From Lachnospiraceae bacterium 3-1 (lineage in GTDB: Bacteria; Bacillota; Clostridia; Lachnospirales; Lachnospiraceae): DNA of 64,000 bases. A model generated the notes under the pieces. That model ran no database searches, was not told where the DNA came from, and was given only the letters and a program-made list of their open reading frames with translations. The translations under genes and the position numbers were made by a program. Below, in pieces: positions 4,230 to 28,881 of this stretch. Every line of letters starts with the position of its first letter. The stretch's first letter is position 1. The DNA is taken from positions 124,001 through 188,000 of the forward strand of contig KE159592.1 in assembly GCA_000403255.2 (NCBI GenBank), read 5' to 3'.

Positions 4230-4258
4230 TATATAGAATAGTAGATTGGAGGATAAAA

Positions 4259-7767: not shown

Positions 7768-7793
7768 AACTTTTATGAAAGGAAGTGCAGGTT

Positions 7794-7997
7794 ATGGCAA
7801 AATCTTTGCAGGAAATCCAGGACATGCTGATAGACAGATGGAGCAACAACGCCTGCCGTGGATATATTATCAAGGCGATGGAAAGCTGCGGCTATAAGTC
7901 AAAGGACATCCGGGAGGTTCTTATAGAACTGTACGAAGTGTTTGACTTCTGCTCCGTGGAGGAAGCGGCGGCCTATTATGAACACTGGCAGCCCTGA
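7794..7997 (+). CDS. Small hypothetical protein of the recombinase module
   Basis: A 67-residue acidic protein (MAKSLQEIQDMLIDRWSNNA...). It has two or three predicted helices and no membrane segment or recognised domain. The stretch ESCGYKSKDIREVLIELYEVF resembles a small three-helix DNA- or protein-binding fold, but this is a guess. ATG 7794 has AAAGGAAG at 7778-7785; a GTG at 7785 lies inside that site and is rejected. It sits between a sigma-like gene and a serine recombinase, so a role in regulation or excision of the element is plausible. Copy 5 of the palindrome starts 4 nt after its stop. Confidence 0.6.
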   Translation: MAKSLQEIQDMLIDRWSNNACRGYIIKAMESCGYKSKDIREVLIELYEVFDFCSVEEAAAYYEHWQP

Positions 7998-8000
7998 CCC

Positions 8001-8020
8001 CGGGCCAAGCTGGCCCGAAG
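8001..8020 (+). repeat. Palindromic 20-bp repeat, copy 5
   Basis: Reads cgggccaagctggcccgaag, one base from the consensus. It lies 4 nt past the stop of the 67-residue ORF, a position suited to a 3' hairpin. Confidence 0.7.
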
Positions 8021-8133
8021 CGTGGAGAAAGACGAAGGGGCAGCGCTCTTTGCCGGGCGCTGCCTTTTCGTGTTTCCCCACAGGACAAGAGGGAAACGGA
8101 AGGCTTCAACCCCGATTCGGAAAGGAGGCCCAG

Positions 8134-8310
8134 ATGGTACAATCTGTAACCTACCAGAGAGAAACAAGGACCGTCCCCTTCCAGGGAAAGACTATTGTGC
8201 TGGAAAGCCTTACCCCGGTGCTTTCCCCAAAAGAGAAGGAGAGGCGGAAAAAAGAGATTGAGCGCTGTCTGTATAACGTGTTCAGCAAGTACCGCCAGAG
8301 CCGGCGCTGA
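8134..8310 (+). CDS. Small basic protein preceding the serine recombinase
   Basis: A 58-residue protein (MVQSVTYQRETRTVPFQGKT...) with a basic C-terminal helix ending SKYRQSRR. A very strong AAAGGAGG site at 8121-8128 marks the ATG. No domain is recognised. Its place directly ahead of a large serine recombinase and its basic character would fit a recombination directionality factor or a small DNA-binding accessory, but sequence alone does not show this. Confidence 0.55.
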   Translation: MVQSVTYQRETRTVPFQGKTIVLESLTPVLSPKEKERRKKEIERCLYNVFSKYRQSRR

Positions 8311-8321
8311 CCCCGACAACA

Positions 8322-8350
8322 TTGCCCTCTGGGGCTATCAATGGTATAAT
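8322..8350 (+). promoter_or_regulatory. Predicted promoter of the serine recombinase
   Basis: TTGCCC (8322-8327) and a perfect TATAAT (8345-8350) are spaced 17 nt. It lies 48 nt before the recombinase ATG, and an AGGAAAGGAG site follows. Confidence 0.65.
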
Positions 8351-8397
8351 ATACTTGTAAGGTTGGTAGCTCCATTCCCACAGGAAAGGAGCCTACA

Positions 8398-9903: not shown

Positions 9904-9915
9904 CTTTTCCACTCT
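9888..9915 (+). terminator. Terminator overlapping the recombinase stop codon
   Basis: AGAGTGGAAAA (9888-9898) and TTTTCCACTCT (9905-9915) form a perfect 11-bp stem with a 6-nt loop that contains the TGA stop (9901-9903). Confidence 0.8.
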
Positions 9916-10025
9916 TCATATCTGAAACATTTCTTTATATCGTTTGTAGCCCCTTGTACACTGATGTTTCACTCCACAGATTTATATTATTATTCTGAAA
10001 TCTAAAAGAAAAGAGGTGATATATA

Positions 10026-10103
10026 ATGCACGCAGGAATCTTTTTAAGCGCATGTGTCATAACAGTAGGCGTACTGGCAGCACTGGAAACACTGGCGGCG
10101 TAA
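10026..10103 (+). CDS. Small hydrophobic peptide
   Basis: A 25-residue peptide, MHAGIFLSACVITVGVLAAL followed by ETLAA, preceded by a strong GAGGTGAT site at 10014-10021. Apart from the last few residues it is one membrane-spanning helix. It is too short for family recognition. Such peptides can be small membrane proteins, leader peptides or type I toxins. A second small membrane protein is encoded 0.9 kb downstream. It stands between the serine recombinase terminator and a group of unknown ORFs. Confidence 0.45.
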   Translation: MHAGIFLSACVITVGVLAALETLAA

Positions 10104-10246
10104 TTGTATGAGAACTAATGAAATGGGCAGGTAGCAGAAATGTTATCTGTCTTATTTTTGTGTAAAAAGGAGTATAAAATGGAGCAACATACAAGCAACA
10201 CGATGACGGTAGAACGGAAAGGCATCTTTGACAAAAACCGTAAAGA

Positions 10247-10771
10247 GTGGCAGAAATTCAATTTCAAAGTTGGGAACATTTTCTGCATTATGTGCAGAAA
10301 AAAGAAAGGATTGTACAAATTCCGGAATGGAGCAACTCTTCTGAATTATTTGACGTAGACTATCTGAAAGCGGATGAGTGGGAACGTCTTCAAAAGATGC
10401 TGTCTTCTGATGATTACGAAGACTTGACAGGAACGAAGCGCACCATAGAGGTGCGGTCTTTCCGTATGCCGGAAGAAAATAGTCGGATGATTTTCTATGC
10501 GGCAGGGGAGGATATCGGAGACGGACGTTATCTGTGCATGGGATATGGGATTGTAAGTGAAAAAGCAAACGTAGAGGATAAAAACAATCATTTTACGTCA
10601 ATGCCGGACAAACAGAGCAGGGAGAAGCCGTTTTATTATATCGGAACAGAGCAGGATTACTGGGATAATTACCCAATTCTCCAAATGGATTTACCAGAAG
10701 AGATACTGGAATATCTTGCTTCTCAGATTGTCATACTGGATAGCGATTATGGGGCGGACAGGGATGTGTAG
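10247..10771 (+). CDS. Hypothetical protein, possibly part of a broken gene
   Basis: A 174-residue acidic protein (FQSWEHFLHYVQKKERIVQI near the start) with no recognised domain; its composition suggests a small soluble alpha/beta protein. The start is doubtful. GTG 10247 lacks a good ribosome binding site, and TAA closes the frame just upstream. An ATG at 10179 with AAGGAG reads MEQHTSNTMTVERKGIFDKN in another frame that runs into this gene, as if a frameshift had split it. The TAG at 10769-10771 is followed in the same frame by the next ORF after two codons. The gene could therefore be one longer unit damaged at both ends. Confidence 0.5.
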   Translation: MAEIQFQSWEHFLHYVQKKERIVQIPEWSNSSELFDVDYLKADEWERLQKMLSSDDYEDLTGTKRTIEVRSFRMPEENSRMIFYAAGEDIGDGRYLCMGYGIVSEKANVEDKNNHFTSMPDKQSREKPFYYIGTEQDYWDNYPILQMDLPEEILEYLASQIVILDSDYGADRDV

Positions 10772-10777
10772 GGCGGC

Positions 10778-10987
10778 ATGGGCGGTTTTTGTGCGGTTAT
10801 TCCGAAACTGAATGAAGCCACAAAGAAAGCCTACCGACAGATATTGGAGAAGCATTTTATCCAGGAATCTATGTATGAATATCTTGATACGGTCACTGCA
10901 GATGGTACAGACTGGGTAGAAGCCCTGTATCTTACCAACAATGACTATGGAATCATATTGATCTACCGGAAAGGAGTCGAAGCATGA
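10778..10987 (+). CDS. Hypothetical protein in frame with the preceding ORF
   Basis: A 69-residue ORF (MGGFCAVIPKLNEATKKAYR...) in the same frame as the ORF ending at 10771, separated only by the TAG stop and two glycine codons. Its ribosome binding site is weak (AGGGCGG). It may be an independent small gene, or the C-terminal part of one protein now interrupted by a nonsense codon. The last four bases ATGA overlap the start of the next gene, which implies translational coupling. No domain recognised. Confidence 0.45.
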   Translation: MGGFCAVIPKLNEATKKAYRQILEKHFIQESMYEYLDTVTADGTDWVEALYLTNNDYGIILIYRKGVEA

Positions 10988-11130
10988 TTTTAGGATTTTT
11001 AGCAGCTGTAGGGAGTACCATAGCATCCACCGTAATTATTGAATCCGTAACGGCAGGGGTTGGACTGGGAATTTCCATCTATACAGCGTCAAAATGTGCG
11101 AAGCAGAGCGGCAGGACACGGAGAAAGTAA
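10984..11130 (+). CDS. Small glycine-rich membrane protein
   Basis: A 48-residue protein, MILGFLAAVGSTIASTVIIE continuing with a second hydrophobic, glycine-rich stretch (SVTAGVGLGISIYTA) and a basic tail KCAKQSGRTRRK. It overlaps the stop of the previous ORF by ATGA. The pattern of one or two hydrophobic segments with a cationic end resembles small holins, toxins or bacteriocin-like peptides, but I recognise no family. A strong terminator follows 12 nt later. Confidence 0.45.
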   Translation: MILGFLAAVGSTIASTVIIESVTAGVGLGISIYTASKCAKQSGRTRRK

Positions 11131-11142
11131 TGGCAGAGATAC

Positions 11143-11171
11143 ATGTGGGGATTGTTTGTCAATCCCCACAT
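11143..11171. terminator. Bidirectional terminator, 12-bp stem
   Basis: ATGTGGGGATTG (11143-11154) and CAATCCCCACAT (11160-11171) are perfectly complementary around TTTGT. It lies between convergent ORFs and overlaps the stop codon of the minus-strand ORF at 11159. Confidence 0.8.
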
Positions 11172-11551
11172 AATTCTGTGATTTTTTTTGATATATTTCT
11201 GCAAAAAAGGTTTCGTTGGTAAGTGCGGGAAAAAGGGACTTGATCTAAATTTTCTTTTAATTCCATTAGTTTTCTGAGAGATTTTATGCTATCATCTATA
11301 TTTTTGCCAGATAATTTTTTTACTGATTTAACATTATCACATGATTTAAAATCAAAAAGTATAAATTTATAAGTTGGGAGAGAATCCAAAGCATGGAATG
11401 ATGCAATCCTAAAAGTGGCTAAACTGTTATTCTCAATGTATATAGTATGAGTTGAGTTTTTTTCATCACCGAGTAACTGATCTACAATCTTGTAAAGAGT
11501 AGGAGAGTTATACCGTCTTATCTTTTTGTGTACAAAATATAATTTAGACAT
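11159..11551 (-). CDS. Hypothetical AT-rich protein
   Basis: A 130-residue basic protein (MSKLYFVHKKIRRYNSPTLY...) coded in AT-rich DNA unlike the GC-rich block to the left. It looks soluble, with a DFKSCDNVKSVKKLSGKNID middle, and no domain is recognised. The ribosome binding site is weak (TGAAAA directly before the ATG at 11551), so the true start could differ or the gene could be a remnant. The terminator at its 3' end supports a genuine transcription unit. Confidence 0.45.
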   Translation of the reverse strand: MSKLYFVHKKIRRYNSPTLYKIVDQLLGDEKNSTHTIYIENNSLATFRIASFHALDSLPTYKFILFDFKSCDNVKSVKKLSGKNIDDSIKSLRKLMELKENLDQVPFSRTYQRNLFCRNISKKITELCGD

Positions 11552-11684
11552 TTTTCACATTTTTCGACCTGTATAAATAATATCTGTGTCAAAAAGTTGA
11601 AATAAGGCAGCATAAATGCAGCGGTTATAATTACGTTTTCCACGATAGGGGTCTCTTTTCAATTTACAAACCCTAATGTATAGA

Positions 11685-11718
11685 TAAAATATAAGACCGA
11701 TATCGGTCTTATATTTTA
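11685..11718. repeat. Perfect 34-bp palindrome
   Basis: The 17-bp half at 11685-11701 (TAAAATATAAGACCGAT) is exactly complementary to 11702-11718, centred on GATATC. AT-rich ends flank a GACCG/CGGTC core, so as RNA it would be a terminator-like hairpin on both strands. It marks the left edge of the truncated helicase-like pseudogene. Confidence 0.75.
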
Positions 11719-11737
11719 AGCGGCATGAAGAAGCGAT

Positions 11738-12301
11738 TTGGCAGACAGGGCAATCTTTCTGGAACTGGAAAGGATAAAGCCGGAAGAGATGCTTGGCGAT
11801 GAAGAACTGAAGAAAAAGTGGGAAAAAGACAGACCATTCTTTTTCGGTGCGCTGTACCAGACCGTCAAGGGGGTATTGGGAGATGGGAATCCGTCTGCGA
11901 ATCCGTCGCCGGTAAGAATGGTTGATTTTTATGAAATGGCAGTCAAAGCGGGAAGACAACTTGGATATTCGGAAGAAAAGATATATGAAACATTTCGTCT
12001 GAACAGGAAAAAAATCAATGAAGCTGTTGTTTCCGGAAATGCACTGCTTACGGTAATAGAAAATTTCATGGAAAGAGAAGGGAACAGAGAAGGCATAAAA
12101 AGCAGAGTATCTGATTTTTATCGGGACTTAAAGATTTATGTGATGGAAGACTGCGGGATAAACGGAAGGAGTTTTCCGGGTGCACCGGAAGTTATGACAA
12201 GGAAGATGTCGGAGGACAGGAGCAATCTGGAAGATGCTGGAATTTATTATGAAATAAAAAAGGGAAAAAACGCAAGGTATATTGAAATTTGGAGGCAGTA
12301 A
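11738..12301 (+). pseudogene. 3' fragment of a phage/ICE helicase-primase-associated ATPase
   Basis: The 187-codon frame begins abruptly with LADRAIFLELERIKPEEMLG and continues KDRPFFFGALYQTVKGVLGD, then a VRMVDFYEMAVKAGRQLGYS segment. This is the C-terminal part of the large ATPases found next to primase genes in phages and integrative elements (pattern RAIFLELxxI ... DRPxxxGALxxA ... RMxDFxxW). The N-terminal ATPase domain is missing, no ribosome binding site precedes the frame, and a stop lies just upstream in frame. It is a 5'-truncated remnant. Its end overlaps the start of the recombinase pseudogene in another frame. Confidence 0.65.
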
Positions 12302-16503: not shown

Positions 16504-17592
16504 TCATTGCATCAAGCATGAGAGTAACTGATCATTCATTTCCTGGCTCATAAAGCAGAACCGAATATATTTGTTATCCAGAAATGGGAAAGTGGAACAG
16601 TCACGGATCATCATTTTTTCTCGGATTGCCCGGTCAAACAATTCATTTGAGGTTAGGCCCTCAGACATAAGACGCACCAGCATAAAGTTTCCACTAGGGG
16701 GATAGACTTTAAAACGGTTGTCCTTGGAAAAAATCTGATAAATTCTGGCCCGTTCTTCTGAAATCAGTTTTCTTGTTTTTTGAATGTACTCTTTGTCCTG
16801 GAACATGATTTCTCCTGCAATAACAGCCAGAGAGTTAATGGTCCAAGGATTCTTCCTGGTATTCATCAATTTGATAAAATCCCTGTTTCCAGTGATGGCA
16901 TAGCCCAGTCGAAGTCCAGGAGCTGCAAAAAACTTGGAAGTCCCACGAAGAATAACAATGTTATTGTAAAACGCAGTCAAAGGAACTGAAGTGATTTCCT
17001 CATAATTATCTGCAAATTCTACATAAGTTTCATCCACCATCACAAAAATATCATTTTGTTTGCAAACATCCAGGATATGACGCATGGTTTTTCTTGTAAT
17101 GGCGCTGGAGGTTGGGTTATTTGGATTACAGATCACAACAAGGTCAATGCTTTCGTTTAACTGTGCCGTAAAATGCTCTGCATTCAATGCAAAGTCCTGC
17201 TCCTCCTTTAAAGGATAGTACAGGCATGTGCCGCCGCCTAAAGAAATTTCCCGTTCGTATTCCGAGTACGTAGGTCCGATAATCAATGCTTTTTTCGGAT
17301 GTTGAATCTGTATCAAAAGAGAAATCAATTCGGTAGAACCGTTTCCCATAATAATATTTTCATAATCTGTATTCACATAATCTGCAATGCATTTGCGCAG
17401 GGAGAGGTATTCTCTGTCTGGATAGGAGCAGATGGCGTCAATGTGACGGGCCAGCGTTTCTCGCAGCAAAGGGGAAATGCCAAGGGGATTTACATTGGCG
17501 CTGAAGCTTGTAATCTCATCTTTTTTGATGCCATAAATCTGTTCAATTTTTTCTAAATCACTTCCGTGAAAATGGTCTTTATGCTGTAACAT
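16504..17592 (-). CDS. PLP-dependent aminotransferase, HisC/CobD-like
   Basis: A 362-residue fold-type I aminotransferase. Conserved marks are SFSANVNPLG (30-38), CNPNNPTS (155-162), VDETYVEFAD (186-195) and the cofactor lysine K220 in RGTSKFFAAPGLRLGY. The opening HGSDLEKIEQIYG and SANVNPLG pattern is shared by histidinol-phosphate aminotransferase and by CobD, the L-threonine-O-3-phosphate decarboxylase of cobalamin synthesis. No his or cob genes are nearby, so the substrate cannot be fixed. ATG 17592 has a GGAGG site; an upstream ATG at 17619 does not. It is divergent from the DUF5717 operon. Confidence 0.8.
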   Translation of the reverse strand: MLQHKDHFHGSDLEKIEQIYGIKKDEITSFSANVNPLGISPLLRETLARHIDAICSYPDREYLSLRKCIADYVNTDYENIIMGNGSTELISLLIQIQHPKKALIIGPTYSEYEREISLGGGTCLYYPLKEEQDFALNAEHFTAQLNESIDLVVICNPNNPTSSAITRKTMRHILDVCKQNDIFVMVDETYVEFADNYEEITSVPLTAFYNNIVILRGTSKFFAAPGLRLGYAITGNRDFIKLMNTRKNPWTINSLAVIAGEIMFQDKEYIQKTRKLISEERARIYQIFSKDNRFKVYPPSGNFMLVRLMSEGLTSNELFDRAIREKMMIRDCSTFPFLDNKYIRFCFMSQEMNDQLLSCLMQ

Positions 17593-17655
17593 AATTTTCC
17601 TCCAAAAATATTTACACAAATGTTTGAATGGTTTATAATTAATAAGACTGACTTC

Positions 17656-17702: not shown

Positions 17703-20700
17703 TTGCAAAAGAAATTAGAAGAACTGACAGCAGGAGTGTGCAGCAACAATTCCTCTATCCTTCAATTTTCCGTGGAACAATTGGAATTTGAGGTAGTAGA
17801 GGGGACAGATTATACAGGGGAATTCCTGATAGAGAGCGCCAGCGATATGCCAGTCAAAGGCATTGTCTATTCCTCCAGCCCCAGAATGGAGTGTCCAAAC
17901 TCAAAATTTCAGGGGAATAAAATTACGCAAGTATTCAAATTTCATAGTGAAGGGCTGGCAGAAGGAGATGTTCAAAAAGGCAGTTTTCATATTGTCAGCA
18001 GCCAGGGAGAATATGACCTTCCTTTTTCCGTGGCTGTTTCCAGCAATTATCCCAATAGTTCTGTTGGAAAAATAAAAAGTATTTTTGATTTTGCTAATTT
18101 GGCAAGGAATTCTTACGAAGAAGCTGTAAAAATCTTTGGACAGCCGGAATTTATCCATGTTTTTAAGCCTCAGGAGACAGAGGAGTTTTTGATCTACCAA
18201 ATGCTCAGGCGTAAGCCGTGCACAATGGCTCAAGTAGAAGAGTTTTTGATTGCTGCAAGGAAAAAGAAGCGTGTAACCTTTCGGATTGAGGAAGCGCAGA
18301 GAGAATTTTCGGGAATTACGGAAGTAAACAGACAGCATATCACATTAAAAAAAGAAGAATGGGGATTTCTTTCGATTGAAATTATCAATGACGCCAAGTG
18401 GCTCAGCCCGATAAAGAATACCCTGGCTTCCAATGAATTTGTGGGAGGTCATGCATTAGTAGAATATCTGATTCTGCCAGAATTTTTACACCCAGGAAAG
18501 AATTTGGGCAGGATTACGTTAAGGACTTCCTTTCGGACACTTCAGGTAGATATCTGTGTGTTCCAAGGAACACAAAAAGAGCGGACGGATCTTACAATTC
18601 GCAAAAAGCAAGTAGAATTGATGAATGCTTATATACGTTTTGGGCTTCGAAAGATGGTAACGGGGGCTTGGGCAAAGTTATCCATTCGAAAGCTGGAAGA
18701 GCTGATTGCTTTAGAACCAGATAATCTCTGGTATCTTTTGGCAAAAGCACAGGTTTTTTTAGTGAATAAGCAGCAGCAAGAAGGAGAATGGGCGTTAGAC
18801 GCCTTTCCCAAACATAAGGTAGATAAGGAATCACCTTTATATGGTTATTACTTGTACTTATGTGCTCTTCGAGAACCAGAGCCTGTCTATGTCAATAAGC
18901 TGACAGGGAAGATCCGAAAAATTTTCCATAAGAACCAGGAAAACAATCTGCTTTTATGGATTCTGTTGTTTTTGGATGAAGAGCTCAATTACAGCAAAGG
19001 AAGAAAGCTGGAAATCATCATCCGGCAGATCGGTGCATCTGGGGGAAGCTCTGTGCTTTATCTGGAGGCTTATCGGATTCTGGTAAAAGAGCCGTTTTTA
19101 TTAGATCAGCCAGACGAATTTTGCCGGAAAGTATTGCTTTGGGCAGCAAAGCATCAGGGAATTACCCGGGGGATTGCGGAACAAGTCTGTCAGCTTGTGC
19201 CGGAAATTCCAGAGTATCATCCCATTTGGTATCGGATTCTCTGTGAATGTTATGAAGTGTTTCCTGAGAAGGAAATGCTGCAGGCAGTTTGCAGCTATTG
19301 TATGAAATGGAATTGTTATGGGGAATCTTACTGGAAATGGTATCATAAGGGCGTTAGGGAAAAGCTTCGCATTGCGGGGATTTATGAAGCATGGATGATG
19401 TCTGCTGGGAAGAAGCAGTTAGAGCGGATTCCCAAATCAGTGATCCTTTATTTTCAATACAATAACAACCTTCCCTATCCTTCTCAAGCAAAACTGTATC
19501 GCTCTATGATGGAGCACAAATCCTCCTGGAAGAATCATGTTCAGCCTTACCAAAAAAACATGGAGGAATTTGTCATAAAACAGCTAAAAGCAGAGAGAAT
19601 AGACGAGGATTCTGCAGTGGTATACCGGGAAATTCTAAAACCAGATATGATTGCAGATGAATTGTTGGATCATTTGGCAAAAATACTTTTTACCCACAAA
19701 GTCACCTGTAAGGATTCTGGTGCGTTGCGGCTTGTGGTGCGCCAATATTCATTGAAAAAAGAGCAGATCATTTCCTTAAACCATGGAATTGGGTTTGTCA
19801 ATCTTTACAGCAGCTGTTATCAGATTTTATTGGAAGATTCCAGAGGGAACCGTTTTCTGCCAGAAGAGGAGCTGTCGGTGGTTCCCATGTTAGACAGTGC
19901 ACAATTTTTGGAAAAAGGAATTGCTTCTGCCAAGGAAAAGATGCCCTATTTGTTAAAATATTTTGACCGGAAAAAAATCTGGCAGACTTACGAGGCAAAA
20001 GATCTTCCTTATCTTCAGATGCTGATAGAATCTGAAAACATCAGCGAGACATACCGGGAGGATTTGCGCCCACAGATTATTTCATACTATTATTACAATT
20101 ATACAGGGGACGCTTTGGATGAGTTTTTGTTGTCTGTATCCTTTGACGGCATGAAAAAGCGTGCAAGGGAGCGGATTATGGAGCTTCTTGTGGCAAGGCG
20201 CCATTATAAACGTGCTTATGAATTGCTGCTGTCCTATGGCAGTGAGAGCATTTCGGCTCCGAAGCTTGTCTATGTTATTTGCCATCAGATGGAAGAGATG
20301 GATGCAGATGGGGAACCAGATGAATTTTTATTGCGGTTGTGCCGGAGTGTATTTTTACGCGGCAAATACAATGAGCGTATCTTAAGCTACATGTGCCGCC
20401 ATTTCTATGGGAAGATGGAAGAGATGGCAAAGCTATGGCAGGCGGCATGTGATTTTGAACTGGATACCTATGCTTTGGAGGAACGGTGTCTGTTACAGTT
20501 TTTGTATACAGGAGATTTTTCTCCATGCATTGAAAAAATTTTTGAAAGCTACGGGGAAAATTTGGGCAGGGAAGTTATTGTACTTTCTTATCTCACCTTT
20601 ATGTCTGATCAGTTTTTACGGAAGGATACCGTTGTATCCGATTATGTATTTCAGAAAATTTTCAGAATGCAAAAAGGCAAGCAGGAGCTGAATCAAACCT

Positions 20701-21239
20701 GCAGGCTGGGCTTTTTAAAATGGTGCTCCTGTGGAAAAGAATTGTCAAAGGAAGAGAAGGACTGGGCAGAAATAATATTGGCAGAATATATTTCCAATGG
20801 AACGTATTTCTCATTTTATAAAACGCTTCCAGAAAGTTTTGCTGGAAAATATCTTTACCATGATAAGACGTTCCTGGAATACCATACAGAGCCTGGGCAG
20901 AAGGTAGTTCTGATTTTCCTGCCAGTGGGAGGCTCGGATTATCTGGAAATAGATATGAAGGAAGTGTATGAAGGAATTTATGTAAAAGAATTTCTGGTTT
21001 TTTATGGAGAAAAAATTCCCTATTACATCAAAGAGAAAAAGGATGGGGAATGGTCTGTCGTGGACGGCGGGCAGATACAAAACCAGGAGCTTTGCATTTA
21101 TGCAGAAGGCAGCCGTTATGATTTGATCAATGACATGATGGTAAGCTGGCAGATGAAGGATGAGCAAACCTTAATGGAACGGATGGAAACCTATGGTATT
21201 CTGGATGGGATGGTAAGAGAAGAATTTAATCTTTTATAA
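17703..21239 (+). CDS. DUF5717 family protein
   Basis: A 1178-residue protein matching the DUF5717 family known mainly from Lachnospiraceae. Residues about 15-125 and 210-290 look like two beta-sandwich (Ig-like) domains (LQFSVEQLEFEVVEGTDYTG; WGFLSIEIINDAKWLSPIKN). The large middle (about 300-1000) is an alpha-solenoid rich in Leu, Tyr and Trp and reminiscent of TPR-like repeats. The C-terminal 120 residues return to beta structure (VVLIFLPVGGSDYLEIDMKE). No catalytic motif, signal peptide or membrane helix is seen, so it is probably a large cytosolic scaffold. It starts at TTG 17703 after AGGTG and heads a five-gene operon with 27 nt to the next ATG. The function is unknown. Confidence 0.8.
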   Translation: MQKKLEELTAGVCSNNSSILQFSVEQLEFEVVEGTDYTGEFLIESASDMPVKGIVYSSSPRMECPNSKFQGNKITQVFKFHSEGLAEGDVQKGSFHIVSSQGEYDLPFSVAVSSNYPNSSVGKIKSIFDFANLARNSYEEAVKIFGQPEFIHVFKPQETEEFLIYQMLRRKPCTMAQVEEFLIAARKKKRVTFRIEEAQREFSGITEVNRQHITLKKEEWGFLSIEIINDAKWLSPIKNTLASNEFVGGHALVEYLILPEFLHPGKNLGRITLRTSFRTLQVDICVFQGTQKERTDLTIRKKQVELMNAYIRFGLRKMVTGAWAKLSIRKLEELIALEPDNLWYLLAKAQVFLVNKQQQEGEWALDAFPKHKVDKESPLYGYYLYLCALREPEPVYVNKLTGKIRKIFHKNQENNLLLWILLFLDEELNYSKGRKLEIIIRQIGASGGSSVLYLEAYRILVKEPFLLDQPDEFCRKVLLWAAKHQGITRGIAEQVCQLVPEIPEYHPIWYRILCECYEVFPEKEMLQAVCSYCMKWNCYGESYWKWYHKGVREKLRIAGIYEAWMMSAGKKQLERIPKSVILYFQYNNNLPYPSQAKLYRSMMEHKSSWKNHVQPYQKNMEEFVIKQLKAERIDEDSAVVYREILKPDMIADELLDHLAKILFTHKVTCKDSGALRLVVRQYSLKKEQIISLNHGIGFVNLYSSCYQILLEDSRGNRFLPEEELSVVPMLDSAQFLEKGIASAKEKMPYLLKYFDRKKIWQTYEAKDLPYLQMLIESENISETYREDLRPQIISYYYYNYTGDALDEFLLSVSFDGMKKRARERIMELLVARRHYKRAYELLLSYGSESISAPKLVYVICHQMEEMDADGEPDEFLLRLCRSVFLRGKYNERILSYMCRHFYGKMEEMAKLWQAACDFELDTYALEERCLLQFLYTGDFSPCIEKIFESYGENLGREVIVLSYLTFMSDQFLRKDTVVSDYVFQKIFRMQKGKQELNQTCRLGFLKWCSCGKELSKEEKDWAEIILAEYISNGTYFSFYKTLPESFAGKYLYHDKTFLEYHTEPGQKVVLIFLPVGGSDYLEIDMKEVYEGIYVKEFLVFYGEKIPYYIKEKKDGEWSVVDGGQIQNQELCIYAEGSRYDLINDMMVSWQMKDEQTLMERMETYGILDGMVREEFNLL

Positions 21240-21266
21240 AATGTAATCATAAGGCAGGTGAAGAAA

Positions 21267-22505
21267 ATGAGGCCGACGGCAGGTGAATGGTATATTGGAA
21301 TTGAACTGGGAAACAGATGGACGCAAGTAAGCTGTTATCATCAAAATCTGGCAGAACCGGAGACAATAAGTACCGTAACGGGAACGGAACTGTATCAGAT
21401 TCCTACAGCAATCTGTAAACGGAAATCTACAGGAAAATGGTGTTTCGGGGAAGAAGCCAGCAGAATGGCAGAATCGGGAGAAGGCGTCTATGTGGAAGAT
21501 CTGTTGGACAGGGCCTTAAAAAAAGAGAAGGTTTTCCTGGATCGGGAATATCAGGCAAGAGATTTGCTGCTTGTATTTTTAAAAAAGGTTTTAAGGATTG
21601 CCCTTCCATCCAAAGGAGTTGAGGTAGTTACCAAATGTGTATTTTCTCTAAGAGAAGTAACCAATGAACTGGTGGCGCTGCTACGGGATCTGTCGATGAA
21701 ATTAGGAATCCAAAGAGAACAGTTGGTTATCCAGGATCACAGGGAAAGCTTTTATGCGTATGCCGTGTGTCAGGAGCCGGCATTGTGGCAATATGATGTG
21801 CTGCTGTTTTCCTGCAACGGAGAAGAAATCTGGCTGAAGCATCTTTTGTGTAATAAAAGAACGAAGCCGAAAATTGCAGAAGTAGAAGAAGTATGCCTTG
21901 GAAAATTACCAGAGAATGTAAGGGAGTGGGATATTTCCTTTTCCCGTATGGTTCAGGATGCTATGTCAGGCAGGATTGTATCTGCAATTTATCTAATTGG
22001 AGGTGGATTTGAGGGGAATTGGATGAAGGAATCCCTGCAAATCATTTGTCGTGGAAGACGGGCATTCCAGGGAAAGAATCTTTATACCAAAGGGGCTTGT
22101 TACGCTGGAATGCTTGCAACGCACCAGGAACAGGCAGAAACCGTATATTTTTGTGAATATAAAATACAAGAACATATTTTACTAAAAGTAACGAAGGGAG
22201 ATAAGACGTATTTTTATCCGTTGCTGGAGGCAGGGTGCAACCAGCATCAGATTGGAAAGCAGCTTCGAATTCTTCTGGAAGGCGAACCAGCATTGGAGCT
22301 TTGGGTACAAAGACCGGGAAGCCAGGAGGCCAGAATTGAAAGTTTGGAGCTGACAGAGCTTCCCATGGAGGATGCAGGACGCTGCCGTCTGGCTCTTTCC
22401 CTCTATACAGGGGAGGAAGGAAAGATTCTGCTGAACATGCGGGACATTGGATGGGGACAGCTTTCCCCAGGAAGCGGCAAAGAATGGGAATATGAAATAG
22501 GATAA
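21267..22505 (+). CDS. DUF5716 family protein, Hsp70/actin-like fold
   Basis: A 412-residue protein with actin/Hsp70 superfamily features. The phosphate-1 loop near residue 10 reads YIGIELGNRWTQVSCY (Hsp70 has GIDLGTTNS), and an adenosine-type motif near residue 240 reads AIYLIGGGFEGNWMKES. The usual Asp and Thr of the phosphate loop are replaced by Glu and Arg, so ATPase activity may be altered or lost. The last third is a beta-rich segment (about 295-412) where Hsp70 has its substrate-binding domain. ATG 21267 has AGGCAGG upstream; GTG 21258 is possible. It lies between DUF5717 and a TPR gene, consistent with a chaperone-like or scaffolding complex. Confidence 0.78.
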   Translation: MRPTAGEWYIGIELGNRWTQVSCYHQNLAEPETISTVTGTELYQIPTAICKRKSTGKWCFGEEASRMAESGEGVYVEDLLDRALKKEKVFLDREYQARDLLLVFLKKVLRIALPSKGVEVVTKCVFSLREVTNELVALLRDLSMKLGIQREQLVIQDHRESFYAYAVCQEPALWQYDVLLFSCNGEEIWLKHLLCNKRTKPKIAEVEEVCLGKLPENVREWDISFSRMVQDAMSGRIVSAIYLIGGGFEGNWMKESLQIICRGRRAFQGKNLYTKGACYAGMLATHQEQAETVYFCEYKIQEHILLKVTKGDKTYFYPLLEAGCNQHQIGKQLRILLEGEPALELWVQRPGSQEARIESLELTELPMEDAGRCRLALSLYTGEEGKILLNMRDIGWGQLSPGSGKEWEYEIG

Positions 22506-22536
22506 AGAGAATCAATCAAAAGAGAGGAAGCAGGCC

Positions 22537-23286
22537 ATGAGTAAAGTATGGTTATGTGAACAAAAGATAGCAGAACACCCACTCTTTCTGGAGGAAGCAG
22601 GCGCAGATTTGTATTCCTTTGAAGAATTGTGTTATTATCTGTATCAGAATACTGGGACGTTGGAGGAAAGCTTTTTTAATGAAAAATTATGTCAGTGGTT
22701 AGAAGAGGAAATTGGACAGTTGGAGCTTTCAGCGTGCTTAAGACGAGGGATTGCGCAGGAAAGAAGCGGCTGCTGGTGTATGGAACAGATTTTACTGGCT
22801 GGCGGCTTTTATCATTCAAAGGAACTGGAGGGTGCTTTAAAAACTGCAAAACACATGGAAAACAAGGGACCTTTGGATCGGGAGAAGTTGCGGGGGGATC
22901 GTTTGTTAAAGGCAGAAAAATACAAAGACGCTGTCATTGAGTACCGAAAAGCCATTGCCCAGGCAAAACAGGAATCCGAGAATGAAAAAATAATTGGAGC
23001 TATCTGGCATAATATGGGTACTTCGTATGCCAGGCAGATGCTTTTTGAACAGGCGGCTGAATGTTATGAGACTGCCTACGCCATCGGACAGAGAGAGGAA
23101 AGCAAGGCAGCCTATCTTTTGGCTCTTGCCAGTAAGAATGGCCAAAAATTTCATACAGCACCAGACGGATTGGTAAAAATCCGGCGGGAGCTGGAAAGGC
23201 TCAAACAGTCAAACCGCAGTAGTTATGAAAAACTATTAGAAACTACTTTACAAAATCTTAGGACAGGATATAGGAAAAGTGAGTAA
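22537..23286 (+). CDS. Tetratricopeptide-repeat protein
   Basis: A 249-residue protein with TPR-like repeats in its second half: DRLLKAEKYKDAVIEYRKAI (about residues 119-138), then AIWHNMGTSYARQMLFEQAA and ECYETAYAIG (about 153-182), which fit the W-LG-Y-A-P spacing. The N-terminal 110 residues are helical and specific to this family. No membrane segment. It ends 2 nt before the next ATG and follows the Hsp70-like gene by 31 nt, so all are co-transcribed. TPR proteins commonly bridge Hsp70 and Hsp90 in other organisms; whether this one does is inference from the neighbours. Confidence 0.75.
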   Translation: MSKVWLCEQKIAEHPLFLEEAGADLYSFEELCYYLYQNTGTLEESFFNEKLCQWLEEEIGQLELSACLRRGIAQERSGCWCMEQILLAGGFYHSKELEGALKTAKHMENKGPLDREKLRGDRLLKAEKYKDAVIEYRKAIAQAKQESENEKIIGAIWHNMGTSYARQMLFEQAAECYETAYAIGQREESKAAYLLALASKNGQKFHTAPDGLVKIRRELERLKQSNRSSYEKLLETTLQNLRTGYRKSE

Positions 23287-23288
23287 AA

Positions 23289-24527
23289 ATGGGATTATTC
23301 AAAAAAAAGAAAAAACCGAAATATATCGAAGAAATTTTAGAATTTGGTGAAGAGATCGATCGAAAATCCAGGCGGCGGGAAAATAAGGCGAAGCAGAATC
23401 AGAAAGTAAAGCAGAATGCCAATGGGAAAGAGAATGGAACGACAAATCAGGGACAAAATCAAAAGAAAAGCCTTGCCACAGAATACTGTGAACAAATTAT
23501 GGCTGCTGCAAGGAATCTGGAGGAGACAAAGCGGGAATATAAAATAGTAACAGACTATCTTACGGATATCCAGACCCTTGAGAATTTACCTGAAGATGAA
23601 TGGAAAAAGATTCTTGAGACTGCTCAGAATATCCAGAACCTGAATGAGGCCAGGGATGCGTATCTGAATAAATCGAAAACCATTTCAGATGCTCAATTTG
23701 CTCAGATGGAACAGTTAGAGGATGAAATGCCAGAAATTATTAAGCGTCTCCAAAGCAATGAAGCCTACCAGACCACCGTGAAACGGGATATGCAGTATCT
23801 GGAAGGAGAACGGGAAGAATGGCGTTATTACCAGGATTCTCTGGAACAGGAAGAGGATATCCTACGCAAATTATTTTATGGTCTGGCTGGCACATATGTT
23901 CTGGCAGTTGGTGTGATTGTCATATTAGGAATGGTGATGAAATTTGACATTATGATGCCTTTTGTGATAGCTACGTTAATTGCCGGAGCAGTTGGTGGGA
24001 TCATGGCTTTGCGCCTGCAAAATGACAGGATGGGCCTTAAAAAAGCCCAGGCAAATATCAATCGGGCGATTGTATTATTAAATAAAGTCAAGTTTAAATA
24101 TGTCAATGTAACCAATGCAGTGGATTATGCTTGTGAAAAGTATCATGTTAAGAATGGATATGAGTTAAGCTATATCTGGGATCAATATTTAGAAGCAGTA
24201 AAAGAGCGGGATAAATATCAACGCACCAACGATGAGCTGGAATATTTTAATGACAAATTGATCCGGCAGCTTCAAAAATATCGATTCTATGATGCTAGAA
24301 TTTGGATTCATCAGGTAAAAGCTCTGCTGGATAAAAAGGAAATGGTGGAAGTGAAGCATGACCTTTTAATGCGGCGTAAGAAGCTCCGCAGTGGAATGGA
24401 GAGCCAGGCTACTGATATCAGAGGCGCAAGAAATGAAATTGAAAAGCTAATCAAGAACCGCCCAGGAGGTAATCAGGAAATCAAAGAGATTTTAGACTCT
24501 GTAGATCAAATATGTGGAATTGGATAG
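23289..24527 (+). CDS. Coiled-coil membrane protein of the DUF5716/DUF5717 operon
   Basis: A 412-residue protein. The N-terminus is very basic (MGLFKKKKKPKYIEE) and followed by an Asn/Gln/Lys-rich linker (about 30-60). A long coiled coil (about 65-190) leads to two adjacent transmembrane helices at about 195-250 (LAGTYVLAVGVIVILGMVMK and MMPFVIATLIAGAVGGIMAL). A second helical domain with coiled-coil character makes up the C-terminal 160 residues. No enzyme motif is seen. The layout suggests both ends face the cytosol with a short hairpin in the membrane, a possible membrane anchor for the complex encoded around it. Confidence 0.7.
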   Translation: MGLFKKKKKPKYIEEILEFGEEIDRKSRRRENKAKQNQKVKQNANGKENGTTNQGQNQKKSLATEYCEQIMAAARNLEETKREYKIVTDYLTDIQTLENLPEDEWKKILETAQNIQNLNEARDAYLNKSKTISDAQFAQMEQLEDEMPEIIKRLQSNEAYQTTVKRDMQYLEGEREEWRYYQDSLEQEEDILRKLFYGLAGTYVLAVGVIVILGMVMKFDIMMPFVIATLIAGAVGGIMALRLQNDRMGLKKAQANINRAIVLLNKVKFKYVNVTNAVDYACEKYHVKNGYELSYIWDQYLEAVKERDKYQRTNDELEYFNDKLIRQLQKYRFYDARIWIHQVKALLDKKEMVEVKHDLLMRRKKLRSGMESQATDIRGARNEIEKLIKNRPGGNQEIKEILDSVDQICGIG

Positions 24528-24577
24528 AACCGTCGTCACGAAAGAGGAAAGACTTCATTGAGGGGAGAAGGGGCAGA

Positions 24578-27500
24578 ATGGAAATTAGATATTCATTGGA
24601 ACAACATTTACATGACATGGCAAGTCTTGACAAGAGGATACAATCACTTGAGAGCATATATATCATTCAGAAGGAAAAGATGGAACATTTTCTATCTACG
24701 ATAAAGACCACATTTCCAACATACAGTACTCATGATGTATATCATTCCTATCATATTATAATTGCAATTGAAGAAATATTAGGCAAAAAGCGAATGGAGA
24801 AATTATCAGGCGCAGACGCGTTTCTTCTGCTAATCTGTGCGTACATGCATGATCTGGGTATGCTCTATACGGATGAGGAAGTCAGGTCCTTATGGAAAAG
24901 TAAAGAGTTCCAATCCTTTCTTTCCAATTGTGTAGCAGAAGGCAGCTCTCTCAAAGAAGCAGCAGAAATGGTTCGTGGAATGGAAAAGAAAGACGCCTCA
25001 ATTACATGGCCATTGGAAATTAAGAAATCCATTGGCCTGCTTTTGATGGCATTTTTCAGATCCAGACACGGGGAACGTATCGAAAAGGTTACAGACAAAC
25101 GCTATGGAAGAATTGCTGAATGTATGGAATTTGACCATTCCTTTCTCCCGGAAAGGATTTCCAGGCTGATTTACCGAATCTGTATGTCGCACAACTGGAA
25201 GGCAGAGAGAATTCTTTCTGATTTGCCATACGAAGACACGTTTAACGGGGAGAAAATGCACCCAAGATTTGTTGCCTTTTTCTTACGTCTTGGGGATTTA
25301 TGCGATTTGGATAACGACCGTTTTGACCGGATTAGCATTGCAGCCTTTGGAACCTTGGGGGATGATAATCTGCCCCATTATTTCAAACACAAAAGTGTAA
25401 ACACCTTAAGCATATCCAAGGATATCATTCATATTGTGGCAGACGTCAGGGAAGATGAGATTGCCTATGAGTGCAAATATGACTGGTTGAAGGATGAGAA
25501 GGAAGCTGTTCAGGAGAAAAGGATTGGAAATGTATTTCGGGCTACGGTGAAAGAACATATTTTATGGCGTTCCTGGATGGAGGATGAACTAAAATTTGCA
25601 AGATTAAATTGCAAACAAATTTTTCCTAAGGAACTTTCCATGGATTTACCAGATTTTGCATACAATATATTGATCAATGGAAAAGAGAGTGCATCCGCTA
25701 AGGAAAATATGAGATTCCATTTTTCCATGGAAAAAGCATTTTCGTTGATTGAAAATATAAGCATTTACCAGGATGAAAAATTTATCTTTATCCGAGAATT
25801 GGTGCAGAATGCCATTGATGCTACAAAGCTGCAGTTATGGCGGGATTTGCAGAGCATGGGGGTAGACCATCCAGAAGCTTTGTCGCCGTTCGAGATTGAA
25901 CGGAAGCATCCAGATATTTATGACCGATATCCCATTGAAATCATCGTGGATTATGATGCAGAAAGAAAAACTGCCCAGATGACAGTAAGGGACTGCGGTA
26001 TTGGCATCAGTATGGAGGAATTTAAAAATAACATTCTTGTGACAGGAAACAGTTGGAAAAAACGCACCGCCTATCAAGAGGAATTACAAGCTATGCCAGA
26101 ATGGATCCGGCCAACAGGGGCTTTTGGAATCGGATTGCATACTGTTTTTTATCGGGCAGATCAGCTTGAAATTCATACCAAATCTGAGTCTGAAAATCAT
26201 GCCAATAAAATTGTTTTGTATTCTGGAAAAAAAGATGGATTTGCCTTCTGTCAGACCGATACGGTTCGAAAGAAACGGGGAAGCGAATTTGTTTTTGAAT
26301 TTGAGCTGGATGAAGCTCAGGAAGAATCTTTGCTGGATATAGATGAAGAAGTGGCAATCTTCAGCGATTATAATGAGAGATTTGTATCCCTGATTGTTGA
26401 GGAAGTAAAAAATTGGTGTAAAAATCCTTTGTTTCCAGTCTATGTCAATGGAGAATGTATTGCATCCTGTCTGACAAAAGCAGAGCATACCAGACTCTTA
26501 AGCGATAGTCAGAGAATAAATTTTGTTTTAGATAAATGGATTGAGCACAAGGGATATGAATATGCTTTTTCAGAGGATTACAGGGAAATTGTAATCTGGG
26601 ATAAACGAAATGGACTTCTTTTAAATATGTCTGTGGTTATGGGAAATTGGGAATCAGATATTCCCTTTGAAGATGGTTTTGATATGAATACTTCATTTAT
26701 GGGAATTCGGATTGGGAATGGGTTTTATGAGGGAACTAAGAGCGTGCCATTTCTGCATTTAAACGATATGGATATCTTAACTGGAGATGCAGACACGGTA
26801 ATTGACGCTTCCAGAACCAAATTAAATGAAAAAGAAATTAAAAGGCTCCAACCCATTGTCTATGAAGCAGCATGTTTTGCAAGGAGCCGCTATCTGGAGC
26901 TTCTGGAATATATTATTGCCCATGAAAAAAGAATGGAAATGATGACAGACCTTGCAAATATGTTAGAGGCATATGCGAGAAAAGATTTGGGGAAAGAGCA
27001 GATTCTTCCAAGTCTGTATCGATTAGAGCGTAAGTATTTTGCTGCCGAATATAAAAATGGTTTGGAGCGGAGAATTCTTGTCTATAAATTAGCGTATATG
27101 CTGGTGGATATGCAGCTTTTGAAGGATTTTGATTCATTGAAAGATGGTTGTATGAAGAATAAGGATCATCTCGAATGGGTGGGAAATGTGGAATTCCTGG
27201 GGTTATTGGATGTTGTGTTAAAGCATCAGAAATCCTGTGGGCGCAAAGGGTTTGACGAAGAATTTTTCAAATATTATTTCAAACGTCAAATAGACGAGAT
27301 CATACGTCTCTATATGAAAAAATGGGGATATTTGGTTGCAATCTGTTACCATAAGCGGAATATAAACATAGAACATTTGAGGAAATGTTTAGAGAAGACA
27401 ATCACCAATCAAATGCCTTTCCTAAAAGCATGGAAAAGAAATTGTGGTTGTGAAATGCATACGATACATATCGTAAATTGGTACTGCGGTAAATCGACTG

Positions 27501-28396
27501 GGGACTTTCCCAGAGGAGTAGAAAATGACCTAACAGGGAATTTACTTGAACCAACCATGTCTTCATGTTTTGGAGAATGGAGACATTTTGGCTCTTATGC
27601 AGAGGATTTGGCTCTTCCCATTACTGTGTATGGATGGTATCGGGACATTATTTTTATGATGCTGGATGGGGAACAGGAACTTGACAAGAAAACCGTTGAT
27701 TTGTGGAAACGTACCTTAGACGGCGCCCTGTATGGTAAAGTATCCGGCCTTCCGGGGAAGCTGAACAGTAACCTCGAATTCTTGGATAAACCGGAGTTTG
27801 TGTGGAAGAGCCATTCCTTTCAGACTGACTGTGAACTTGCGTCATTTCTTCAATATATGATGATTACCCAGATAGATGTTGCTTCTGGGAGTTGGAGCGT
27901 AACCTATCATTTGGGAGAAAAACAGACAGACCGGGAAGGGAATATTCGGGGATATGAAGTGAACCAAGAAACCAAGGATTACTTTTACCAGGAATATTAT
28001 TATCAACTGGAAGAATGCGATTATGATGACAGGACGTATGAGAGGATGTGCGGATTTGCCGACTATCCGAGGATTTTGCTTGTGAAGGAAGATTTCGGCT
28101 ATAATGAGATTCTTGGCAGAGATGAACATTGGCAAAGGTATATCCCATTATGGGAGCGCAACGGAAACATAAAGGCTTTTCTCGAGGAACATTCTGACAT
28201 GGATTATTATGATTGGACGAATTTGGTGAAAGAAAGCGAACAGTTTGAACGGGTGACCCGCTACATCTGTTGGAAAAAACATCATTCCTACGATATGGAC
28301 AAGCTGGAAGAAATCAAAGAAGAATATGAAGCATTTCTCATAGACATGTTTGGCGCATGGTATGAAAAAATCAATGGCTCCAGAGCGTTGGGATAA
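24578..28396 (+). CDS. HD domain fused to an Hsp90-like (GHKL) ATPase
   Basis: A 1272-residue protein. Residues about 45-325 form an HD metal-phosphohydrolase-like domain with His52, His56/His59, the HD pair His91-Asp92 (ICAYMHDLG) and Asp240 (LRLGDLCDLDNDR). Residues about 380-560 form a GHKL ATPase much like the Hsp90 N-domain: N-box Glu407...Asn411...Asp414 (RELVQNAIDATK), DCGIG at 472-476, and the glycine-rich lid GAFGIGLH (514-521). The rest (about 560-1272) resembles no domain I know. ATG 24578 has AGGGGAG upstream; ATG 24512 overlaps the previous gene and is less likely. Similar Hsp90-like ATPases occur in conflict and defence systems; a chaperone role is an alternative. Confidence 0.82.
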   Translation: MEIRYSLEQHLHDMASLDKRIQSLESIYIIQKEKMEHFLSTIKTTFPTYSTHDVYHSYHIIIAIEEILGKKRMEKLSGADAFLLLICAYMHDLGMLYTDEEVRSLWKSKEFQSFLSNCVAEGSSLKEAAEMVRGMEKKDASITWPLEIKKSIGLLLMAFFRSRHGERIEKVTDKRYGRIAECMEFDHSFLPERISRLIYRICMSHNWKAERILSDLPYEDTFNGEKMHPRFVAFFLRLGDLCDLDNDRFDRISIAAFGTLGDDNLPHYFKHKSVNTLSISKDIIHIVADVREDEIAYECKYDWLKDEKEAVQEKRIGNVFRATVKEHILWRSWMEDELKFARLNCKQIFPKELSMDLPDFAYNILINGKESASAKENMRFHFSMEKAFSLIENISIYQDEKFIFIRELVQNAIDATKLQLWRDLQSMGVDHPEALSPFEIERKHPDIYDRYPIEIIVDYDAERKTAQMTVRDCGIGISMEEFKNNILVTGNSWKKRTAYQEELQAMPEWIRPTGAFGIGLHTVFYRADQLEIHTKSESENHANKIVLYSGKKDGFAFCQTDTVRKKRGSEFVFEFELDEAQEESLLDIDEEVAIFSDYNERFVSLIVEEVKNWCKNPLFPVYVNGECIASCLTKAEHTRLLSDSQRINFVLDKWIEHKGYEYAFSEDYREIVIWDKRNGLLLNMSVVMGNWESDIPFEDGFDMNTSFMGIRIGNGFYEGTKSVPFLHLNDMDILTGDADTVIDASRTKLNEKEIKRLQPIVYEAACFARSRYLELLEYIIAHEKRMEMMTDLANMLEAYARKDLGKEQILPSLYRLERKYFAAEYKNGLERRILVYKLAYMLVDMQLLKDFDSLKDGCMKNKDHLEWVGNVEFLGLLDVVLKHQKSCGRKGFDEEFFKYYFKRQIDEIIRLYMKKWGYLVAICYHKRNINIEHLRKCLEKTITNQMPFLKAWKRNCGCEMHTIHIVNWYCGKSTGDFPRGVENDLTGNLLEPTMSSCFGEWRHFGSYAEDLALPITVYGWYRDIIFMMLDGEQELDKKTVDLWKRTLDGALYGKVSGLPGKLNSNLEFLDKPEFVWKSHSFQTDCELASFLQYMMITQIDVASGSWSVTYHLGEKQTDREGNIRGYEVNQETKDYFYQEYYYQLEECDYDDRTYERMCGFADYPRILLVKEDFGYNEILGRDEHWQRYIPLWERNGNIKAFLEEHSDMDYYDWTNLVKESEQFERVTRYICWKKHHSYDMDKLEEIKEEYEAFLIDMFGAWYEKINGSRALG

Positions 28397-28473: not shown

Positions 28474-28881
28474 ATGGAAAAGAAATGTAGTATTCGTCTA
28501 TTGTTGTTGGGAGTGATTGTCAGCGCAGCCCTAAGCCTGAGCGCCGGATTTTTTGCAGGGTCCCAGAAAAGTTGGAAGACTTATGAGGAGCGCATTGTCT
28601 TGCTTCAGCAGCAGAACGCAGACCTCCTTGCACAGCAGGAGGCGGCAGAGACAGAAAAAAAATTTGCGGAAAGCCTGAAAGTGGTAGAGCCTTATGAATA
28701 TATCTTATTGGAAGAGAATGGTTATGTGGTTGTCTATCACGCAGACAGGGAAACATTATTTGCCGCTACTGATATCCTGGTGGAACATCTACCAGAAGAT
28801 TTGCAGGAGGAAATCAATGTGGGGAAACAAATAGAAAATGAAGAACAGCTCTATAATTTTCTGGAAAATTACACAAGTTAG
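28474..28881 (+). CDS. Membrane-anchored BofC-like small protein
   Basis: A 135-residue protein with an N-terminal transmembrane or signal-anchor helix (IRLLLLGVIVSAALSLSAGF), a coiled coil (ERIVLLQQQNADLLAQQEAA) and a C-terminal beta/alpha domain (YILLEENGYVVVYHADRETL, then EHLPEDLQEEINVG). The C-terminal part resembles the BofC C-terminal domain family of clostridia and bacilli, which acts outside the membrane. The function here is not known. It is separated from the HD-Hsp90 gene by 77 nt and from the flavoprotein by a promoter, so it may be a monocistronic unit. Confidence 0.65.
   Translation: MEKKCSIRLLLLGVIVSAALSLSAGFFAGSQKSWKTYEERIVLLQQQNADLLAQQEAAETEKKFAESLKVVEPYEYILLEENGYVVVYHADRETLFAATDILVEHLPEDLQEEINVGKQIENEEQLYNFLENYTS

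Follow-up and report, generated by a model that had tools for sequence, protein, structure and literature searches.

A conserved Lachnospiraceae gene set built around a degenerate Hsp70 and its relation to a longer multi-Hsp70 operon

A 64,000-nucleotide stretch of the genome of Lachnospiraceae bacterium 3-1 (contig KE159592.1, positions 124,001 to 188,000; genome of 5.08 Mb in 27 contigs), referred to throughout as the window, contains five open reading frames on its plus strand between positions 17703 and 28396, here designated genes A to E (Table 1). Comparison with related genomes places A, B, and C in the core of the family Lachnospiraceae. The descent of A-B-C-D from a longer operon that encodes several Hsp70-type proteins in other families of the order is well supported by shared gene order and sequence, and gene E is, from the same comparisons, a local insertion unrelated to the conserved unit. 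We infer the present function of A–D from this descent and consider it somewhat better than an even bet that the four products form a membrane-tethered, nucleotide-independent co-chaperone platform derived from a multi-Hsp70 machine.

Gene B Encodes a Degenerate Hsp70

The product of gene B matches the Pfam family DUF5716_C (E-value 6e-84) and, by profile comparison and in a structure model, DnaK in both domains. An actin-like nucleotide-binding domain (NBD) spans approximately residues 8–295, without most of lobe IIB, and is followed at approximately 300–415 by the β-part of the substrate-binding domain (SBD-beta). DnaK chains align over residues 10–415 of the model, and the profile comparison adds a collinear second stretch corresponding to DnaK 458–501 that is weak when taken alone (E-value 4.5). 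On profile and model evidence, B is classified as a true Hsp70 derivative. Its catalytic competence was scored from four elements, which we take to be Lys70, Glu171, Asp194, and the GGGT loop in E. coli numbering. The complete set occurs in 0/78 Lachnospiraceae B proteins and in 0/17 B proteins from other families (distant B), and the catalytic Lys is likewise absent from both groups (0/78 and 0/17). The catalytic Glu and GGGT loop are lost, as is the helical lid (SBD-alpha), with a median of 17 residues beyond a fixed column marking the end of SBD-beta versus 154.5 in DnaK. Lobe IIB, the part gripped by GrpE, is largely lost as well, and distant B proteins still possess a IIB stretch (median 142 residues). 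Because the ATPase residues are lost, B does not appear to be a working Hsp70 motor.

Other features of the nucleotide site persist. The phosphate-1 glycine (G14) is found in at least 90% of 81 sequences, the adenosine-motif glycine in 78/78, and Asp194 in 37/78, and the fold is intact in the model. B could then be an Hsp70 that still works slowly or binds ATP, in a cycle with the general DnaJ and GrpE proteins, and the excerpted text of PMC7083937 provides a precedent in Ssz1, which binds ATP without hydrolyzing it. The loss of the catalytic Lys, Glu, and GGGT loop, together with most of the GrpE-binding lobe IIB, makes this very improbable.

A, B, and C Belong to the Core of the Family

Profile searches for A, B, C, and D were performed with the same sample of 200 family genomes, 165 of them of good quality. 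Genes A and B were each detected in 195/200 (162/165 good quality) and gene C in 195/200 (163/165; one at 4e-4 only). All three were found together in 194 genomes, mostly in single copy; four genomes lacked A and B (one of these accounts for the weak C match), and two others, 67–68% complete, contained one of the three genes. By these profile matches, A-B-C is part of the Lachnospiraceae core. Gene D was detected in 95/200 genomes (75/165 good quality), in 4 of the 95 weakly.

Gene order was compared in a set of named loci comprising the best 80 of 391 matching stretches, and the nearest named relatives by gene A were Lachnospiraceae. The order A-B-C-D was observed in 70 loci, A-B-C in 6, A-B in 3, and A alone in 1. 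Exceptions L065, L069, L085, L093, and L107 are near or at a contig end, and L072, L081, L095, L114, and L117 have no contig end nearby. Five further relatives all carry A-B-C-D (5/5). The original prediction had proposed co-occurrence and conserved order of its five genes as a test; A-B-C passes together in 194/200 genomes, and the linkage of E fails in all 80 loci.

A search of 72,556 plasmid records yielded no match to gene A. Relatives of gene A occur in four unannotated fecal records labeled "Bacteriophage sp." (MT835486.1, MT835988.1, MT835719.1, and MT837190.1), which may represent bacterial DNA in virome preparations.

A Longer Operon in Other Families of the Order

DUF5717 was detected at an E-value of 1e-3 in 71/174 genomes of the order outside the family (one below the curated cut-off) and in 22/22 from the family itself; its Pfam model matched 0/188 genomes of the class outside the order. 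Loci were sampled from 20 of the 71 genomes, representing 10 families, and in 13/20 the adjoining stretch was covered as well. The long gene order is [upstream membrane coiled coil]-AN-AC-H1-X-B-H3-H4-C-D, in which AN is immunoglobulin (Ig)-like and AC is a tetratricopeptide repeat (TPR) protein. Across the 20 loci, AC was present in 20, H1 in 19, X and B in 17 each, H3 in 16, AN in 13 as a separate gene and in 4 as a fusion, H4 in 13, C in 10, the upstream coiled coil in 7, and D in 4, and the misses stem partly from contig or stretch ends. Examples are L165:4196-17175 and L161:3782-13034 with L188, and the others lie within L156–L175. A spread beyond the order, suggested by weak partial matches (2e-7 to 8e-4) of the distant AC profile in 4 of the 188 class genomes, was rejected, and these matches were taken as chance TPR similarity.

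H1 and H3 of L165 are Hsp70 proteins by Pfam (2e-66 and 1e-54), and H4 combines Hsp70 with a VWA domain (Pfam; two proteins scanned). The full ATPase residue set is present in H1 from 19/19 genomes, H3 from 15/15, and H4 from 11/11, the last being the number of distinct genomes among 19 rows that include both copies of overlapping stretches. Measured from the same SBD-beta-end column used for B, the median number of remaining residues is 13 in H1, 25 in H3, and 216 in H4 (the VWA domain), compared with 154.5 in DnaK. The VWA domain sits where a lid would be in H4 from L196:7761-9920 (−) and from ten other genomes; H4 also contains a motif, DTTGSMD, which we take to resemble a metal-site motif. 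X carries a C-terminal GrpE domain (3e-9 to 5e-12 in four proteins scanned), measures 279–645 amino acids (aa), and in most cases has a long extension at its N terminus. A tree was computed from 67 sampled Hsp70 rows, 64 of them different, and in it H1, H3, H4, and the Lachnospiraceae B proteins each formed one clade; long branches leave the deeper joins unsure.

The genome of the window encodes one full-length DnaK and one GrpE, both away from the locus. A second GrpE above the cut-off was found in 0/6 family genomes checked (G087 has one below it, off the locus) and at the locus itself in 5/5 genomes checked from other families.

Two loci show AC-B-C only, with AN not seen: L201 (genome G392, own family) at 7387-12186 and L209 (genome G547, another family) at 3-4705, where the stretch starts at a contig end. 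Both resemble intermediates or states of further reduction.

Counterparts of A, C, and D in the Long Operon

The product of gene A matches DUF5717_N (E-value 0) and DUF5717 (3e-95) in Pfam. Its structure model contains two N-terminal Ig/PapD-like β-domains at about 18–115 and 190–290, a TPR-like α-solenoid at about 293–1050 that is broken by a small β-domain at 664–728, and a C-terminal β-domain at 1055–1126, so that A is modeled as an Ig-like and TPR-like scaffold. A is the fused counterpart of AN and AC, which are mostly separate genes in other families, and hhalign aligned it with distant AC at a probability of 100 over 867 columns. The product of gene C has a weak TPR match in Pfam (1e-4, below the cut-off). 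It was compared with the approximately 385-aa TPR protein encoded after the Hsp70-VWA gene of other families (E-value 9e-31, probability 99.4), and the sequence comparison identifies it firmly as the orthologue of this gene downstream of H4. All Pfam matches of gene D fall below the cut-off (best 0.016). D has a hydrophobic two-helix hairpin around residues 199–245, for which a scan peaked at 199–217 and the second stretch was read from the sequence. It matches the product of the gene after C in other families (E-values 1e-69 to 9e-40, probability 99.7), and its assignment as the orthologue of that gene, present there in 4/20 loci, is equally firm. Descent of D from the upstream membrane coiled coil was considered and rejected, since the one such protein tested gave a probability of 0.4 and D follows C instead. 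A-B-C-D corresponds to the long order minus the motors and the exchange factor, and is most likely its reduced descendant.

A Proposed Function for A–D

The ancestor would have been a membrane-linked operon with four Hsp70-type proteins lacking canonical lids (H1, B, H3, and H4-VWA), a large exchange factor resembling GrpE, a scaffold with Ig-like and TPR parts, and further subunits of the TPR and membrane coiled-coil types. The lineage of the window would then have lost the exchange factor and all three Hsp70s with a complete motif set, and the two halves of the scaffold would have fused into A, leaving the pseudo-Hsp70 B, the TPR protein C, and the coiled coil D in their old order. D may anchor the predicted complex to the membrane from its inner side, with A and C acting as scaffolds that bind partner proteins. 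The SBD-beta of B could provide a low-affinity, nucleotide-independent site for clients or partners, as in Ssz1, and clients might be passed from B to the general DnaK and GrpE. An unrelated HD/Hsp90-like gene, E, would later have landed behind D. A membrane-linked chaperone system was one of two possibilities raised in the original prediction, and this part survives in modified form: the Hsp70 fold of B, the scaffold in A, the membrane coiled coil in D, and the Hsp70 and GrpE-domain proteins of the long loci favor it, while E and a working motor in B drop out.

Several observations weigh against the platform interpretation. A Lys lies within one column of position 70 in 13/78 Lachnospiraceae B proteins, which may reflect alignment slack, and in 1/17 distant ones, and Asp194 is retained in 15/17 distant B proteins as well as in the 37 noted above. 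D is patchier than A–C: its profile matches just 95 of the 200 genomes, four of the 80 named loci have A-B-C with room for D and yet lack it, one has A alone with room, and just 4 of the 20 long loci contain it. For these reasons the membrane subunit may evolve fast, be dispensable, or in some cases have been added late. The domain scans list no J domain for window proteins A–F or for 18 distant proteins, flanking genes not being included in those scans. The direction of change, loss rather than gain, is argued from the shared order and from the catalytic residues that distant B proteins had also lost.

The same traces would be expected from a purely structural role. In that case A–D may form a membrane complex involved in cell shape, division, or the envelope, with the Hsp70 fold serving only as a protein-binding block. 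The incomplete catalytic set in 78/78 B proteins fits this, as do the absence of any remaining ATPase domain among A–D by Pfam and a near-universal, mostly single-copy distribution in the family of the kind expected for housekeeping structure. Two points count the other way, namely that the SBD-beta of B keeps a weak DnaK-like profile signal and that the longer operon clearly encodes an Hsp70 and GrpE-domain system. We give this explanation roughly one chance in four, and retain the co-chaperone platform as the preferred reading.

Gene E Is a Local Insertion

The product of gene E contains HD-CE (1.7e-39) and HATPase_c_3 (9.5e-6) domains in Pfam. A GHKL ATPase N-domain was recognized through a match to the N-domain of yeast Hsp82 (5.6e-9), and the sequence matches between E and Hsp90 proteins end at about residue 630 (best 60 of 123 matches). 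E is absent from 80/80 relatives' loci, 60 of which extend at least 3.9 kb past the last core gene. In the nearest relative, L043, whose gene A is 88% identical, the DNA alignment with the window runs to 24523 and resumes at 28419; in place of E, L043 has an empty site of 215 bp in which a hairpin-forming repeat was recognized by eye. Matches to E were found in 26/200 family genomes, and reached 1e-28 or better in just 7, including the genome of the window; in the six others, there is no A–D gene within 5–19 kb around E. The E family comprises 352 proteins at 1e-10 or better and is scattered, with examples (among the best 120 listed) in Clostridium, Megamonas, Runella, and Spirosoma. Because E is missing from all 80 loci and the nearest relative retains an empty site, these comparisons identify it as a local newcomer unrelated to the conserved unit. 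Base composition was uninformative in this regard (GC of 0.37–0.42 in E and 0.38–0.46 around it). In searches of the open-licence PubMed Central (PMC) literature, the titles and abstract starts listed name no function for HD-CE/Hsp90-like proteins.

According to the original prediction, the five genes form one operon in which Hsp70-like, TPR, and Hsp90-like proteins could cooperate. The comparison did not bear out a conserved five-gene operon, E being outside the unit, and the empty site and the 80 loci without E leave the Hsp70–Hsp90–TPR machine unsupported. A narrower form of the idea is that B, C, and E operate as an Hsp70–TPR–Hsp90 relay in which E is a recruited working part. E directly follows D in the same orientation and may share the promoter of A–D; it lies 50 nucleotides (nt) behind D, at the point where L043 has its hairpin-forming repeat, making co-transcription possible. 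In four loci of one clade, moreover, htpG precedes A by 102–157 nt in the same orientation. Set against this are the absence of E from every locus compared, the lack of A–D genes around E in its six other good carriers, the restriction of close htpG adjacency to that clade, and the limitation of the Hsp90 match to the N-terminal ATPase region, and we consider the relay highly unlikely. The four htpG loci are L085, L097, L098, and L109, and htpG lies within the fetched stretch in 11/80; as a general chaperone link it was rejected, the close adjacency belonging to one clade.

Two further E-like sequences were observed. In G371, a genome of the window's genus, L207:9399-9809 (−) encodes a 136-aa fragment that corresponds to the N terminus of E with 51% identity, near an ffh-like gene; it is perhaps a remnant of another E insertion. 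In G317, L208:7379-12441 (−) encodes a 1079-aa protein that is weakly E-like (51 bits) and lies near a protein judged by eye to resemble a cytosine DNA methyltransferase. This pairing recalls the BbrUII/HgiDII restriction family, which E matches weakly.

Organization and Neighbors of the Locus

The original prediction of five same-strand genes with gaps of 2–50 nt was correct (A-B, B-C, C-D, and D-E gaps of 18, 31, 2, and 50 nt, counting E from 24578), and Pfam and sequence comparison uphold its assignments of DUF5717, DUF5716, TPR (weakly), membrane coiled-coil, and HD-Hsp90-like products. E most likely starts at the ATG at 24578 because the six best other relatives align from residue 13–28 onward of the frame beginning at 24512 and because a 91% identical relative has the same length as the frame from 24578. 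The promoter-like site upstream of A is a consensus match only, as the region contains 27 promoter-type sites and shuffled sequences average 27.0. Rfam and tRNA scans of the window returned no matches.

Table 1. Coordinates of genes and other features at the window locus
Feature	Position	Strand	Description
Promoter-like site TTTACA-17-TATAAT	17611..17639	+	11/12 consensus matches, 63 nt before A
Gene A, DUF5717	17703..21239	+	1178 aa, TTG start
Gene B, DUF5716	21258..22505	+	415 aa, GTG start
Gene C, TPR adaptor	22537..23286	+	249 aa
Gene D, coiled coil with two-helix membrane hairpin	23289..24527	+	412 aa
Gene E, HD-CE and Hsp90-like ATPase	24578..28396 (open reading frame listed from 24512, overlapping D)	+	1272 aa
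E-containing stretch without counterpart in relative L043	24524..28418	+	~3.9 kb, DNA alignment

No flanking gene is a partner common to most of the 80 loci. Clusters present in at least 8/80 (ABC transporters, a divergent aminotransferase, purine genes, htpG, and others) were examined as conserved functional neighbors and rejected. The commonest specific one is the divergent aminotransferase (33/80), which adjoins A in the window at 16504-17619 (−), has relatives upstream in the same 33 loci, and is presumably HisC/CobC-like. N termini similar to it are found beside the locus in several other families (L158, L161, L162, L166, L168, and L175). On the other side, between E and a flavoprotein-like gene, the window encodes a small protein, F, at 28474-28881 (+), with an N-terminal hydrophobic stretch and a weak match to BofC_C (0.067). 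F also follows D in the empty-site relative L043.

Comparison with Known Systems

The best worked-out parallel is Ssz1 of the yeast ribosome-associated complex (RAC), proposed as an analogy of mechanism and not of membership or sequence descent. As described in the excerpted text of PMC7083937, the Hsp70 Ssz1 has no lid and binds ATP without hydrolysis, and nascent chains bound at low affinity are passed to Ssb. B is also lidless, and a lack of hydrolysis is predicted from its sequence. Ssz1 differs in partnering the J protein Zuo1 at the ribosome, whereas the domain scans here list no J domain, the D protein belongs to the membrane, and most of lobe IIB is additionally missing from B.

DnaK, HscA, and HscC are the only prokaryotic Hsp70 types named in the excerpted text of a review of bacterial Hsp70s (PMC8215388), where HscC is tied to the membrane via its J proteins. 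The locus proteins share the NBD and SBD-beta with these, and the ATPase residues examined are intact in H1, H3, and H4. They differ in that H1 and H3 are short past SBD-beta, H4 has a VWA domain, B is degenerate, and up to four paralogues occur in one operon. The likeness to the DnaK–DnaJ–GrpE system lies in the C-terminal GrpE domain of X, but X is 279–645 aa and mostly has the long N-terminal extension, a J domain is not listed, and the window version has neither motor nor exchange factor. E resembles Hsp90/HD-CE proteins in combining HD-CE with HATPase_c_3, and differs from Hsp90 in that its sequence matches stop after the N-domain region.

The second alternative raised in the original prediction, a defense system, can be considered beside the predicted GAP1-N2/DO-GTPase conflict systems. 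Theme 2 of these (PMC7159879, section 29) includes Hsp70, GrpE, a truncated second Hsp70, and a β-repeat protein (FNIII repeats) fused to TPR, and the overlap in content is evident, although Hsp70 with GrpE occurs in the loci of other families only and not in the window. PMC7159879 contains none of the terms DUF5716, DUF5717, and Lachnospir-. The VWA domain of H4 (two scanned) and the sporadic, defense-like distribution of E also favor a conflict role. However, GAP1-N2 was absent from 18/21 genomes and off the locus contig in the other 3 (DO-GTPases were not searched for), there are up to four Hsp70-type genes, and the 194 genomes that carry A, B, and C, mostly as one copy, give a near-universal rather than scattered distribution in the family. 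Gene A is unmatched on plasmids, an effector-like domain is absent from the proteins scanned, and no PADLOC family matched at an E-value of 1e-3, the best being HamA1 to A at 0.0094. A defense function is therefore unlikely for A–C, and a conflict system akin to GAP1-N2/DO-GTPase is very improbable as an explanation of the locus.

In searches of the open-licence PMC literature, no title or abstract start listed described this locus or the long operon, and DUF5717/DUF5716 appeared in one, unrelated, paper. A broader interpretation, to which we assign rather less than an even chance, is that the long operon represents a new kind of bacterial Hsp70 machine, with four Hsp70-type proteins that lack canonical lids, a giant GrpE-like factor, and an Ig-TPR scaffold encoded in one membrane-linked operon, and that in a family dominant in the mammalian gut it has been rebuilt around the dead subunit alone as a near-indispensable, ATP-independent chaperone platform.

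The locus adds to the known Hsp70 types a co-traveling set of paralogues without canonical lids. The series from a motor-driven operon to a motor-less remnant, whose core is kept in 194/200 sampled genomes of a main gut family, would offer a natural test of what the Hsp70 fold does without ATP hydrolysis, and it points to a core Lachnospiraceae function not yet described.

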